From NCBI RefSeq assembly GCF_014174165.1, contig NZ_JABEQN010000019.1, positions 1 through 64,000 on the forward strand: a stretch of 64,000 bases of DNA, written 5' to 3'. Position numbers and translations under genes: made by a program. The notes under the pieces are model-generated. The model searched no databases. It was not told the origin of the DNA and was given only the letters and a program-made list of their open reading frames with translations. Source of the stretch: Gluconacetobacter dulcium. Its GTDB lineage: Bacteria; Pseudomonadota; Alphaproteobacteria; Acetobacterales; Acetobacteraceae. How positions within the stretch are numbered: position 1 is the first letter of the stretch; each line of letters opens with the position of its first letter. Positions 23,811 to 28,038 of this stretch are shown here, one piece after another.

Positions 23811-24589
23811 GGGGCGGGGTGATCCTGCGGTGGGTGTCGGTGCTGGCTTTTGCCGCGCCGCTGGCCGATCTGTCGCCGGCGCTTGCGCAGGCTGGGCCGC
23901 ATGACCGGGCGCCGCATCGGGCCTGGAGCTTCGAGGGGCCGCTGGGGCGATTCGATCTTTCCGCCGTCCAGCGCGGGTATGCCGTCTATGCCCAGGTCTG
24001 TTCGGCCTGTCATGGCATGAAGGCCATGACCTATGGCGACCTGACGCGCATGGGGCTGACCATGGAGCAGGTCGGCCGGATCGCGGCCACGCAGCAGGTG
24101 CCGGGCGGGGTGGACGCGCAGGGCGACCCGGTGACGCGCGCGGCCACGCCGGCCGATCATTTCCGTGACCCGTTCGTCAATCCCGAGGCCGCCGCGGCGG
24201 CCAATCACGGTGTGGCGCCCCCCGACCAGTCGCGGCTGGCGCTGGTCTATCCCGGCGGGCCGGACCGGATCTATGCGTTGCTGACCGGATATCGGCCGCC
24301 GCCACCGGGGTACCGGCCCAGCCATGCCGGCGCCGTCTACAACCCCTATGCCAGCGACCGCGAAATCGCGATGCCGCCGCCGTTGCGCGACGGGCAGGTT
24401 GTCTATACCGACGGCACGCCCGCCACCACGGCGCAGGAGGCGCGGGATGTCACCACCTTTCTGGCGTGGGTGGCGCAGCCTCATCTGGAGGCGCGCCACC
24501 GGCTGGGCGCGCAGGTGGTGCTGTATCTGCTTTTCCTTGCCGTTCTGGCGTTCCTTCTGAAACGGAGAGTCTGGTCCGATGTCCACTGA
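23807..24589 (+). CDS. petC: Cytochrome c1
   Basis: The c-type heme subunit of the bc1 complex, passing electrons to cytochrome c or directly to an acceptor. 260 residues with an N-terminal signal sequence ending near SPALAQA, the heme motif CSACHG (residues 65-70), a REIAMPPPL segment supplying the methionine ligand, and a C-terminal membrane anchor (VVLYLLFLAVLAFLLKRR). The start codon overlaps the petB stop (ATGA). Its end overlaps mtnP by 11 bases. Confidence 0.94.
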   Translation: MRGGVILRWVSVLAFAAPLADLSPALAQAGPHDRAPHRAWSFEGPLGRFDLSAVQRGYAVYAQVCSACHGMKAMTYGDLTRMGLTMEQVGRIAATQQVPGGVDAQGDPVTRAATPADHFRDPFVNPEAAAAANHGVAPPDQSRLALVYPGGPDRIYALLTGYRPPPPGYRPSHAGAVYNPYASDREIAMPPPLRDGQVVYTDGTPATTAQEARDVTTFLAWVAQPHLEARHRLGAQVVLYLLFLAVLAFLLKRRVWSDVH

Positions 24590-25496
24590 AACCGCCCCCC
24601 TTGCGTCTGCTCAGGACGCCGTCGAACCCGTGATCGGCCTGATCGGCGGATCGGGCCTGTATGATATCGACGGGCTGGAAGACAAGGCGTGGCGCACGGT
24701 CGAAACCCCGTGGGGCCAGCCCTCCGACCAGTTGCTGTTCGGCCGGCTGGACGGCGTGCGCTGCGTGTTCCTGCCGCGCCACGGGCGGGGGCATCCGATC
24801 CCGCCGTCGCGCCTGAACTATCGGGCCAACATCGCGGCGCTGAAGATGTCGGGCGTGACCGACATCGTGTCGCTTTCGGCCGTGGGGTCGCTGAAGGAGG
24901 AGCTGCCGCCGGGGCATTTCGTCATCATCGACCAATTCATCGACCGGTCCTTCGCGCGGGAGAAGAGCTTCTTCGATACCGGCTGCGTGGCCCATGTGTC
25001 GGTGGCCGACCCGCTGTGCCCGCGCATCGGCGACGTGCTGGAAGAGGCGGCGCGGGAACTGAAGCTGGATGTGACGCGCGGCGGCACCTATCTGGTGATG
25101 GAAGGGCCGCAATTCTCGACCAAGGCGGAGAGCAATCTTTACCGGTCCTGGGGCTGCTCGGTGGTCGGCATGACCAACATGCCGGAGGCCAAGCTGGCCC
25201 GTGAGGCGGAGATTTGTTACGCGACCGTGGCCATGGTGACGGATTACGATTGCTGGCACCCCGACCATGACAGCGTGACGGTCGATGCCGTCGTGAAGGT
25301 CATGCTATCGAACGCCGACCGGGCCAGGGCGCTGGTGAAGTCGGTGATCCCGACCCTGGGCCGTCCGCGCGGGCTGTGCCCGGCCGGGTGTGACCGGGCG
25401 CTGGAACATGCGCTGATCACCGCGCCGGAGAAGCGCGACCCGGCCCTGCTGGCCAGGCTGGAGACCATCGCCGGGCGCGTGCTCTCGCGCGGCTGA
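24579..25496 (+). CDS. mtnP: S-methyl-5'-thioadenosine phosphorylase
   Basis: Splits methylthioadenosine, the by-product of polyamine synthesis, into adenine and methylthioribose-1-phosphate. 305 residues with IGLIGGSGLYDIDGL, the PRHGRGH-IPPSRLNYRANIAALK phosphate/ribose region, SLSAVGSLKEEL, and FSTKAESNLYRSWG…VGMTNMPEAKLAREAEICY around the base-binding site. The gene starts inside the end of petC, so it is co-translated with the bc1 genes. Confidence 0.94.
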   Translation: MSTETAPLASAQDAVEPVIGLIGGSGLYDIDGLEDKAWRTVETPWGQPSDQLLFGRLDGVRCVFLPRHGRGHPIPPSRLNYRANIAALKMSGVTDIVSLSAVGSLKEELPPGHFVIIDQFIDRSFAREKSFFDTGCVAHVSVADPLCPRIGDVLEEAARELKLDVTRGGTYLVMEGPQFSTKAESNLYRSWGCSVVGMTNMPEAKLAREAEICYATVAMVTDYDCWHPDHDSVTVDAVVKVMLSNADRARALVKSVIPTLGRPRGLCPAGCDRALEHALITAPEKRDPALLARLETIAGRVLSRG

Positions 25497-25591
25497 CGCG
25501 GGAGCAGGCGGCGTCGGCCTTGCCGGCGCCGCGCGTTCGGCGGACTTTGCGTGGCAGGCATGGATGGATCATGCGCGCCAGGCGGCGCGTT

Positions 25592-26335
25592 CTACGCGCG
25601 GAGGCGGCCCGGTATCGGCCGGGCGGTCGGCGCGGCGGGCGTCGTTTTTTTCCAGACGATCATGTCGTCCCGCATTTCCACGGGGGCATCATCATCGCCG
25701 GATATATCGTCGAGCATGACGGCGAAGGTGCCGGTTTTCGCCCAGTCCTGATAGCGTCTGTAAATCGAGTTCCAGTTGCCGAAGGTGGCTGGTAACGCGC
25801 GCCAGGGCCGGCCGGTCCTGACGATCCATAAGACCGCTTCCACGAAAAGACGGCAGTTTTCGCCTTTCCTGCCTGTGGTGGCGGATGGCTTCCAGCGCTC
25901 CAGCCGTGACCGCATCCGCTCCCATTGCGCATCGCCAAGAACGAACAGGCGATCGGGGGAGGTGTCCGCCGGATCGTCGATTCCGATCGATCCCCGGTTG
26001 ATCGGGGTTTCGACCTCAACGGGCCGTTGAGGTTGTTGAGGTTCGGGCGTCCCTGGCGCGGCGGGAACCCTGCGTGATCGCGGTGCCGGCGCGCCCTGAA
26101 GCAGGTCCAGAGGGCTCGCATCCAGGGCCTTGGCGATCTCGTACAGGCTGATGATGCTGGGATTGCGCATCCCACGCTCAAGATCGCTCAGATATTGCTG
26201 GCTGAACCCGGAGCGTTCCTCGACCTGCTGCTGGGTCAATCCGCGTTCTCGCCGGAGCCGGGCAAAATTTCTGCCGACAAGCTGGCGCATATCCATACGC
26301 CCACAATCCAGCTTTACCCGTTTCCGCGTTATCAA
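25592..26335 (-). CDS. XRE-type HTH protein fused to an IS5-type transposase N-terminal domain (DUF4096)
   Basis: A 247-residue protein with two unrelated parts. Residues about 20-80 form a classical Cro/CI helix-turn-helix (GRNFARLRRERGLTQQQVEERSGFSQQYLSDLERG…). After a proline-rich linker, residues about 128-211 match the N-terminal DUF4096 domain of IS5-family transposases (LGDAQWERM…ENCRLFVEAVLWIVRTGRPWRALP…NWNSIYRRYQDW). No DDE catalytic domain follows; instead the chain ends in an acidic and then basic tail. Codon composition is as for neighbours, and the frame is intact. It may be a domesticated regulator using the transposase part for DNA or partner binding. Start could also be ATG 26296 or 26290. 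It is divergent from the GT25 gene. Confidence 0.75.
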   Translation of the reverse strand: MITRKRVKLDCGRMDMRQLVGRNFARLRRERGLTQQQVEERSGFSQQYLSDLERGMRNPSIISLYEIAKALDASPLDLLQGAPAPRSRRVPAAPGTPEPQQPQRPVEVETPINRGSIGIDDPADTSPDRLFVLGDAQWERMRSRLERWKPSATTGRKGENCRLFVEAVLWIVRTGRPWRALPATFGNWNSIYRRYQDWAKTGTFAVMLDDISGDDDAPVEMRDDMIVWKKTTPAAPTARPIPGRLRA

Positions 26336-26368
26336 CTATAATATGTAAAACGCGTCATTCGGGTTGGG

Positions 26369-27313
26369 ATGCAAATCGTCGCTGCTGACGATGCGGGGTA
26401 CCTGGCGCCAGAAGGGGAAGATCAGTCCGTGCGTCCATTACCATCATCCGGGGCAACGGCGCGGGAGGGTCGGGTCTCGATCCTCTACATCAATCTTGAG
26501 CGCAGTTCTGACCGTCGGATGGCCATGAACGACCAGTTCAGAGCATTGAGCCTGTCGGCGGCGCGCATCGAAGCGATCGACGGACGTGAACTTTCCCCCG
26601 ACCAGGTGGCGCGTTGCGATCAGGACGCGAGGCGGCGGCGACGCGATACCGCCCTGACATCCAACGAAATCGGCTGTTTCCTGAGCCATCGGCGCGCCTG
26701 GGAAACGATTGCGCGCTCCGGGAAATCCACTCTCGTTCTGGAAGACGACGTTGCCTTGTCGGACGATCTGCCCGATCTGTTGCGGCGCCTGTCGGCCGAT
26801 CCGCCTGCGCCGCATTTCATCCGCATGGGCGGAAATCGACGACGGCGGTCGCTGTTCGCTGGAGAGCTGTCGGAACGTTACGAAATCCGCCTTCTTCTCA
26901 GCGGATGCAGCGGTAGCCATGCCTATTGGCTCACCCCTGCCGGCGCGCGCGCCCTGCTGGCGGCATCCGGCAGGTTTGTAGAGGCGGTGGACGTTTTTCT
27001 GGATCATTACTGGAATTCGCGCGGCATCATGTATGCCGTCCAGCCATGGCCGGTCGAATTGCGTGACGATGCCAGTTCCTCGACCATCGGCGACGAGCGG
27101 TTTCGCCTGGAATGCTCCTTGAGACGCAGCGAGACCATGGTTGCCGGCCTGATGCGTTGGTGCCTACGGCAGCGACGCTCGCTGATCAGGCGGTGGTGGA
27201 GTGCGAAAACCTGCGTCGCCTGGAGTGCGAAACATGGCGGACGATCTTTAAAGCCGATGGGCGGACTTTGGCTCCGGCCGCTTTCGACCCGTCGATGGAC
27301 GCGTGTCGGGTAG
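26369..27313 (+). CDS. Glycosyltransferase family 25 protein
   Basis: A 314-residue enzyme of the lipooligosaccharide galactosyltransferase-like GT25 family. YINLERSSDRR near the N-terminus, SNEIGCFLSHRRAWE, and the metal/nucleotide-sugar motif LVLEDDVALS are clear, with GSHAYWLTPAGARALL in the second half. The C-terminal 60 residues are basic and tryptophan-rich. It probably adds a sugar to a surface glycan; donor and acceptor are unknown. It stands alone and is divergent from the HTH/DUF4096 fusion gene. Confidence 0.8.
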   Translation: MQIVAADDAGYLAPEGEDQSVRPLPSSGATAREGRVSILYINLERSSDRRMAMNDQFRALSLSAARIEAIDGRELSPDQVARCDQDARRRRRDTALTSNEIGCFLSHRRAWETIARSGKSTLVLEDDVALSDDLPDLLRRLSADPPAPHFIRMGGNRRRRSLFAGELSERYEIRLLLSGCSGSHAYWLTPAGARALLAASGRFVEAVDVFLDHYWNSRGIMYAVQPWPVELRDDASSSTIGDERFRLECSLRRSETMVAGLMRWCLRQRRSLIRRWWSAKTCVAWSAKHGGRSLKPMGGLWLRPLSTRRWTRVG

Positions 27314-27369
27314 CGGCCGGCATCCGAACGAATGTCACATGACGGACGATATCCTGCGATTTTCGTGCA

Positions 27370-28038
27370 TTAAAGCGTCCGATCGAAGAAGGCCAGGCTG
27401 CGGGTGCGGGCGAGGTGGGCCGCCGGGGCGTTGAAGCTGGCGCGTTCCGGGCAGCCGAAGCCGTGCCCGGCATCCGGGTAGGTGTAGACCGGCAGGTCGG
27501 GGTGGGCGGCGCGGATGGCGGCGATGTCGGAGAGCGGGATCGCGGCGTCGGTCTCGCCGAAATGCAGTTCTACCGGGCAATGAGGCGCAAGGGTTCGCTC
27601 GGCGGCGATGCCGCCGCCATACCAGCCGACGGCCGCGCCGAAAGCGTCGGTGCGGCAGGCGGCCTGCCAGGCGATGGTGCCGCCCCAGCAATAGCCGATG
27701 ATGCCGGTATGGGCCGGTGGCAGGCCCAGTGCGCGCGCGGCGGCGGCGATGTCGCGCAGCGTGTCTTCGGGCGGGATCGCGGCGCGCAGGTCCAGGCCCT
27801 TGCGCACGCCGTCCTGGTCGTAGGGCAGTTCCACGCCGCGCTCCGCGCGGTCGAACAGGGCGGGGGCGATGACGCGGTAGCCTTCGGCGGCGAAGGAGTC
27901 GGCGACGGTGCGAATGTGGTGGTTCACGCCGAAAATCTCCTGCACCACGACCAGCGCGCGGGCGGCATCGGCCGAGCCGGCCGTGTAAGCGGAGAGCGTG
28001 TGGCCGTCGGTGGCGGTCAGGGTGATGGTCTGGCCCAT
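27370..28038 (-). CDS. Dienelactone hydrolase family protein
   Basis: A 222-residue alpha/beta hydrolase. The nucleophile elbow GYCWGG carries the cysteine typical of dienelactone hydrolases; the acid (ETDAAIP) and His (AGHGF) of the triad follow in order. VVVQEIFGVNHHIR near residue 31 is also diagnostic. Members hydrolyse lactones or esters; the natural substrate here is not known. It is transcribed away from the DUF4169 gene at 28085. Confidence 0.88.
   Translation of the reverse strand: MGQTITLTATDGHTLSAYTAGSADAARALVVVQEIFGVNHHIRTVADSFAAEGYRVIAPALFDRAERGVELPYDQDGVRKGLDLRAAIPPEDTLRDIAAAARALGLPPAHTGIIGYCWGGTIAWQAACRTDAFGAAVGWYGGGIAAERTLAPHCPVELHFGETDAAIPLSDIAAIRAAHPDLPVYTYPDAGHGFGCPERASFNAPAAHLARTRSLAFFDRTL

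Follow-up and report, generated by a model that had tools for sequence, protein, structure and literature searches.

A rare fusion of an XRE-type helix-turn-helix with DUF4096, the N-terminal domain of IS5-type transposases, in Gluconacetobacter dulcium

That bacterial regulators can co-opt parts of mobile elements is not a new idea, and a gene in the stretch of Gluconacetobacter dulcium DNA analysed here (64,000 nucleotides of contig NZ_JABEQN010000019.1, hereafter the window) raises the question of whether the front domain of a transposase has become part of a working repressor or has merely been joined to one by accident. An earlier reading, made from the sequence alone, proposed that a transposase N-terminal domain had been domesticated into a cellular regulator, possibly one that dampens IS5 elements. 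We examined the gene, its relatives, its upstream DNA and its neighbourhood, and we find that the first proposal is supported and the second is not.

Frame, start and domains of the fusion gene

A single intact frame does join a Cro/CI helix-turn-helix (HTH) to DUF4096, as had been claimed. Counted from a TTG codon at 26335, the frame (25592-26335, minus strand) comprises 247 codons, is open throughout and gives Pfam matches over the curated cut-offs for both halves (Table 1). In 247-codon numbering, HTH_3 occupies residues 26-77 with a score of 56.4 bits (cut-off 23), which places the protein among the Cro/CI-type regulators, and DUF4096 occupies residues 133-206 (79.2 bits against 34.3). The start assumed by the sequence-only reading, however, has to be revised. 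Since the TTG falls inside the conserved operator-like site described below, and since both the close homologue P0002 and standalone XRE relatives begin at the equivalent of a downstream ATG, translation most likely starts at that codon. The gene converges on mtnP, with 95 bp between the two stops.

Table 1. Features of the fusion gene and its surroundings (window coordinates)
Feature	Position	Strand	Evidence or remark
XRE-DUF4096 fusion gene	25592..26296	-	234 aa, probable start ATG 26296; open frame
XRE / Cro-CI helix-turn-helix (HTH_3)	26105..26260	-	Pfam E 3.1e-15
Proline-rich linker, predicted disordered	25949..26092	-	pLDDT under 50, residues 69-116 of 234
DUF4096, N-terminal domain of IS5/IS427-type transposases, without catalytic domain	25718..25939	-	Pfam E 2.7e-22
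Short tail around first catalytic Asp, HxHGxGAKGG motif largely lost	25592..25717	-	column comparison, alignment
Operator/promoter-like site TTACATATTATAGTTGATAACGCGGAAACGGGTAA	26314..26348	-	left half intact, right arm degenerate
Sigma-70-like promoter TTTACC-18-TATAAT	26313..26342	+	consensus scan; points at glycosyltransferase gene
Divergent glycosyltransferase family 25 gene	26369..27313	+	Pfam Glyco_transf_25 E 1.4e-25
Segment between mtnP and dienelactone hydrolase gene	25497..27379		absent from bare-junction congeners

The AlphaFold model gives the HTH a pLDDT of about 90 and five helices, and it predicts that the proline-rich linker between the domains is disordered. The absence of a DDE catalytic domain within or after the frame was borne out: when five full-length IS5-type transposases (247-250 aa) were compared with the region 24500-27400, every alignment ended at transposase residues 96-98 and no catalytic part was matched. 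Similarly, the protein aligns to positions 4-102 only of the 258-position NCBIfam model for IS5 transposases (NF033580), with a score of 78.4 bits, below the cut-off of 110. Of the parts that make up an IS5/IS427 transposase, DUF4096 is therefore present and the DDE catalytic domain is not. As a side observation, the DUF4096 part also matches the phage protein family PHROG 6657, which has no assigned function; the match lies close to the end of the 463-position profile, so that other long proteins may also end in DUF4096.

Relatives, conservation and a probable single old fusion

Whole-length homologues fell into three clusters in a search of about 5.8 billion proteins. The full-length homologues P0002 (Gluconacetobacter, 234 aa, 97% identical) and the metagenome proteins P0003 (51%) and P0004 (48%) cover 92-95% of the query. 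No fourth full-length member appeared in an alignment-based search (best 120 of 136 matches listed; 7994 candidates scored) or in a search started from P0004; the three protein searches reach only relatives with shared short exact words. A search for the same architecture in Acetobacteraceae, which the sequence-only reading had recommended, returned a place covering both domains in the fusion's own genome only, among the matches listed for 397 family genomes. A profile of the four fused proteins likewise returned the fusion's own genome only (E 1e-40) in samples of 395 genomes from the order, 385 from the class and 398 from the phylum, samples that overlap and in which at most about 7 candidates were scored per genome. 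Genome searches that read through stops listed no broken copy spanning both domains. Judged by these sequences, the fusion is conserved across lineages but rare, and the architecture is not widespread in Acetobacteraceae.

The DUF4096 domains of the four fused proteins form one clade with support of 100/99 (tree of 67 rows). The HTHs of the three fused lineages form a clade together with P0005 (98/95; tree of 40 rows); a clade of fused HTHs only was not recovered, since P0005 falls inside it, although a tree with such a clade was not rejected (p-AU 0.31). The simplest reading of both trees would be one old fusion. P0005 itself carries the XRE HTH and the linker of the fusion up to a TDDEW stretch, followed by 250 residues without a Pfam match, and is possibly a member in which DUF4096 was replaced or shifted. 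Some other relatives of the HTH carry unrelated C-terminal parts, one example being P0020, where a 582-bp contig encodes a related HTH with an IS66 transposase part behind it.

Conservation between the three lineages follows the domains. The HTH is identical at 47-52 of 65 residues and the DUF4096 helical core at 28-31 of 43, which makes the core the best-kept part outside the HTH, while the loop before it (9/29 to 17/34), the tail (10/37 to 16/40) and the linker (12/43, 9/40 and 13/48 in the three pairs) have diverged. When drift to 55% identity was simulated on the window gene, 2% of 300 copies stayed free of stops; this argument is biased towards function because the protein search, from which the distant members P0003 and P0004 came, sees open frames only. 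An alignment with nine IS-type proteins shows that the core R-F-A-W-RTG-PWR-LP-FG-WN-R-W is retained in the fusions, whereas GKxxDPGRSG and HxHGxGAKGG are largely lost. The position of the first catalytic aspartate holds D in P0001 and P0004 and G in P0003, and none of the three lineages has the remainder of the catalytic domain. All three also share the changes S176R, F192Y and F195Y, at each of which eight of the nine references have the usual residue.

This pattern, in which three lineages with one DUF4096 clade conserve the domain cores while the linker and the catalytic motifs have diverged and no catalytic part is present, supports domestication. So do two findings described below, namely that the closest IS group has no copy of its terminal repeat in the window and that the gene keeps an operator-like site. 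The sequence-only reading had named the outcome that would overturn it, namely a fusion confined to one strain and created by a recent IS insertion flanked by IS ends. Such an insertion is rejected here because two lineages at about 50% identity share the fusion, the DUF4096 domains form one clade and that repeat is absent.

A second family has a comparable layout. The search started from P0004 turned up three metagenome TetR proteins of 319-322 aa (P0131, with P0169 and P0170 respectively 95% and 75% identical to it), which combine an SbtR-like C-terminal domain with a variable linker and a strongly conserved DUF4096 core at the end, again without a catalytic part. The TetR and XRE fusions lie apart in a tree of 74 rows, each group with support of 100/99, and a joint clade is 16.5 log units worse, though not formally rejected (p-AU 0.08). 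Regulators thus appear, from this tree, to have captured DUF4096 more than once. We tentatively extend this to a broader proposal, which we regard as plausible but somewhat doubtful, in which repressors would have captured DUF4096 repeatedly (XRE once, TetR apparently independently) to become two-headed proteins that tie an operator to transposon-like sites. If true, bacteria would have an equivalent of the fusions between host proteins and transposases that are known from animals.

The upstream site and the chromosomal neighbourhood

Standalone XRE relatives carry a 35-bp site 17-18 nt before their ATG, with the best form TTACATAC-N19-GTATGTAA. The comparison drew on 14 loci with an HTH identity of at least 60%, which provide 10 distinct sites; loci with less similar HTHs have other upstream sequences in its place. 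The window site agrees with the majority of these relatives at 19 of 20 positions on the left, the one mismatch being a position that also varies among the relatives, and at 7 of 15 on the right. L052 and the viral-contig locus L133 have a degenerate right arm as well. The site scores highest among all window positions (25/35, against 20 for the runner-up), and its 20-base left half occurs at one place in the 4.4-Mb genome when up to 3 mismatches are allowed. The same 35-bp site was seen upstream of standalone XRE genes in L052-L073, L100-L102 and L110. It would mark this XRE subfamily across Acetobacteraceae and rhizobial plasmids, and an XRE-DUF4096 gene that appears to have retained it is a new observation.

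The site lies between the fusion gene and the divergent glycosyltransferase family 25 gene and overlaps the sigma-70-like promoter listed in Table 1. The consensus scan found this one promoter-like site against a mean of 0.3 in 50 shuffles, and found none on the strand of the fusion gene. The glycosyltransferase gene is a possible regulatory target of the fusion protein.

Both genes lie in a spot that is variable among congeners. mtnP is present in 12 of 13 congeners, and in seven of these 12 (G001, G002, G004, G007, G009, G010 and G012) the junction is bare, with 19-98 bp between aligned ends and the match resuming in the dienelactone hydrolase gene, where the G. dulcium genome has 1.9 kb with the fusion and glycosyltransferase genes. 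Four others have different DNA at the junction: 1.3 kb with a transporter-like gene in G006, 6.1 kb in G005 and at least 5.6 kb in G003, whose translations, judged by eye, include proteins resembling glycosyltransferases and acyltransferases, and at least 5.7 kb in G008. The G011 alignment picks up again only past the hydrolase gene. The fusion and glycosyltransferase genes have GC3 values of 0.73 and 0.69, below the 0.82-0.89 of four neighbours, and for the glycosyltransferase gene just 4 of 13 congeners gave a match, in each case weak and partial (27-33%). Since GC3 is low and the glycosyltransferase is weakly matched in few congeners, the segment probably arrived by horizontal transfer.

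Function, rival explanations and known systems

The fusion is likely, from these comparisons, to be a working regulator rather than a broken gene. We propose specifically that the XRE head and the catalysis-free DUF4096 constitute a regulator that would act on the operator-like site immediately upstream to repress the promoter of its own gene, a reading to which we assign a probability of about 0.5. In this model the XRE head would form a dimer on the site and repress its own gene, and probably the divergent glycosyltransferase gene too, while DUF4096, as a second head on a flexible tether, would make another DNA contact at a transposon-end-like or derived site and thereby bridge or strengthen DNA binding. 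As to origin, we infer that an XRE regulator of a mobile element, similar to those located next to traM (see below), captured an IS427-type orfA once, and that the fused product later reached the present chromosome by horizontal transfer.

Several lines of evidence argue for this regulator: (i) the fusion is common to three lineages with one DUF4096 clade and is conserved domain by domain; (ii) the operator-like site has an intact left half, is unique in the genome and overlaps a divergent promoter-like site; (iii) the fold of the HTH matches that of autoregulatory controller proteins; and (iv) the TetR-DUF4096 family has the same layout. Against it stand the great rarity of the fusion, with two distant members that are metagenome proteins from a search of open frames, the degenerate right arm of the site and the empty promoter scan on the gene's own strand. 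The failure to recover a clade of fused HTHs only, the lack of a clear match of DUF4096 to a solved structure and a GC3 below that of four neighbours, as expected of a recent arrival, also count against it.

Whether DUF4096 is a second DNA-binding head is where the most serious rival departs from this proposal. The helical core of DUF4096 is expected to contact DNA in transposases, and DNA binding by the fused domain is inferred from the position that the domain has there. AlphaFold models the domain mainly with confidence (mean pLDDT for the domain alone 82.8 in the best and 65.0 in the worst of five models); the PDB contains no sequence match to it, and a fold search gave no convincing match to solved structures. 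It is conceivable, though we think it unlikely, that the protein is fused but not two-headed, i.e. an autoregulatory XRE repressor in which DUF4096 is now a module that mediates oligomerisation, binds a partner or adds stability but does not touch DNA. The lack of a convincing fold relative, the divergence of the loop before the core and the change of several near-invariant transposase positions in all three lineages would fit such a module, whereas it is the helical core, the part expected to touch DNA in transposases, that is best kept outside the HTH.

A role as a dampener of IS elements, in which the protein would bind IS427-type ends or mix with the transposase to hold down transposition, was suggested by the sequence-only reading and finds little in the genome to sustain it. 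The retention of the helical core without a catalytic part would suit such a role, and OrfA-type products of some other IS families inhibit transposition. Among elements whose ends were mapped, IS427-type ISs of the congeners G011 and G005 come closest, at 50-51% identity; the repeat of this group is GGGTCTGTGGGGATTT, in elements of about 0.8 kb, and was mapped on six G011 copies. These six (L112-L117) are near-identical and have CTAG flanks. The repeat is absent from the window at up to 3 mismatches, so that the fusion gene lacks the terminal inverted repeats of this closest group, and the linker DNA holds no trace of its left end (796 of 1000 shuffles were equal or better). The G. dulcium genome has 10 DUF4096 places besides the fusion gene, of which only one matches significantly, at 25% identity, and the repeat occurs there as just four two-mismatch sites scattered on four contigs, against one for a control. 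With 11 places including the fusion gene, against a median of 6 (0-34) in 13 congeners, DUF4096 is not depleted and its number is unremarkable. No close IS with matching ends was found in this genome, an assembly of 76 contigs in which repeats may have collapsed. Taken with these counts, we regard the dampener role as improbable.

Under chance read-through, an IS5-type orfA would have come to lie behind an XRE gene, leaving a functionless fused frame in this genome. This would fit the finding of the fusion in its own genome alone in each large sample, the position of the segment as an insert of horizontally acquired composition in a variable spot and the unrelated C-terminal parts of other HTH relatives such as P0020. 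It is nevertheless very improbable, given that the frame is open and the domain cores are conserved in three lineages that share about 50% identity, and given the absence of the closest IS group's repeat and of any trace of its left end in the linker, and the kept operator-like site.

Among known systems, the nearest relatives of the XRE half are small regulators beside traM on rhizobial conjugative plasmids (e.g. WQP22773.1 on S. meliloti pMl2), whose HTHs are 74-78% identical (three loci). On three such plasmids the small XRE gene diverges from traM across the 35-bp promoter/operator-like site, which lies 17-18 nt before the ATG, as it does in the fusion gene. By its close HTH and shared site the fusion belongs with this subfamily and differs by its C-terminal extension: the traM-adjacent proteins have 72 aa and end after the HTH, without linker or DUF4096, and sit in transfer regions, whereas the fusion gene sits beside mtnP. 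RHE_PA00165 and SFGR64A_00149, the neighbouring genes treated in PMC4294206, are just 32% identical and represent other subfamilies.

The DUF4096 half is about 50% identical to the OrfA transposase protein of the IS427 group (IS5 family) from near the first residue of OrfA on, while the fusion lacks the DDE domain and the terminal repeats of the closest group and places the domain behind an HTH. Some IS427-group elements have two overlapping ORFs with a frameshift motif, according to PMC3281130.

In fold, the HTH resembles C.AhdI, C.BclI, C.Esp1396I, DdrO and ClgR (Foldseek), with target TM-scores of 0.74-0.89. The structure of C.Esp1396I is a tetramer on a 35-base operator, the same length as the window site. 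Controller proteins of the C.AhdI, C.BclI and C.Esp1396I type are autoregulatory; they share the HTH fold with the fusion, which has an extra C-terminal domain, and no restriction-modification genes are present among the neighbours examined (mtnP, the glycosyltransferase, dienelactone hydrolase, cytochrome b and GroES genes).

In the part of the open-licence literature on bacterial transposase-regulator fusions that we surveyed, no title names an XRE- or TetR-DUF4096 protein. The excerpted text of the review PMC8987985 treats XRE factors taken from mobile elements and names no XRE-transposase fusion. A classical repressor with the front domain of a DDE transposase, in separate lineages and mirrored by TetR proteins, was likewise not met there. 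If real, it would offer a small, directly testable system in which to ask if DUF4096, as found in a large IS family, can bind DNA, and by what route parts of transposases become transcription factors in bacteria. Known domesticated transposases and fusions of host proteins with transposases (TldR, CSB-PGBD3) resemble the fusion in using a transposon-derived DNA-binding part in a cellular protein, whereas these cases involve other transposase families and are RNA-guided or human.
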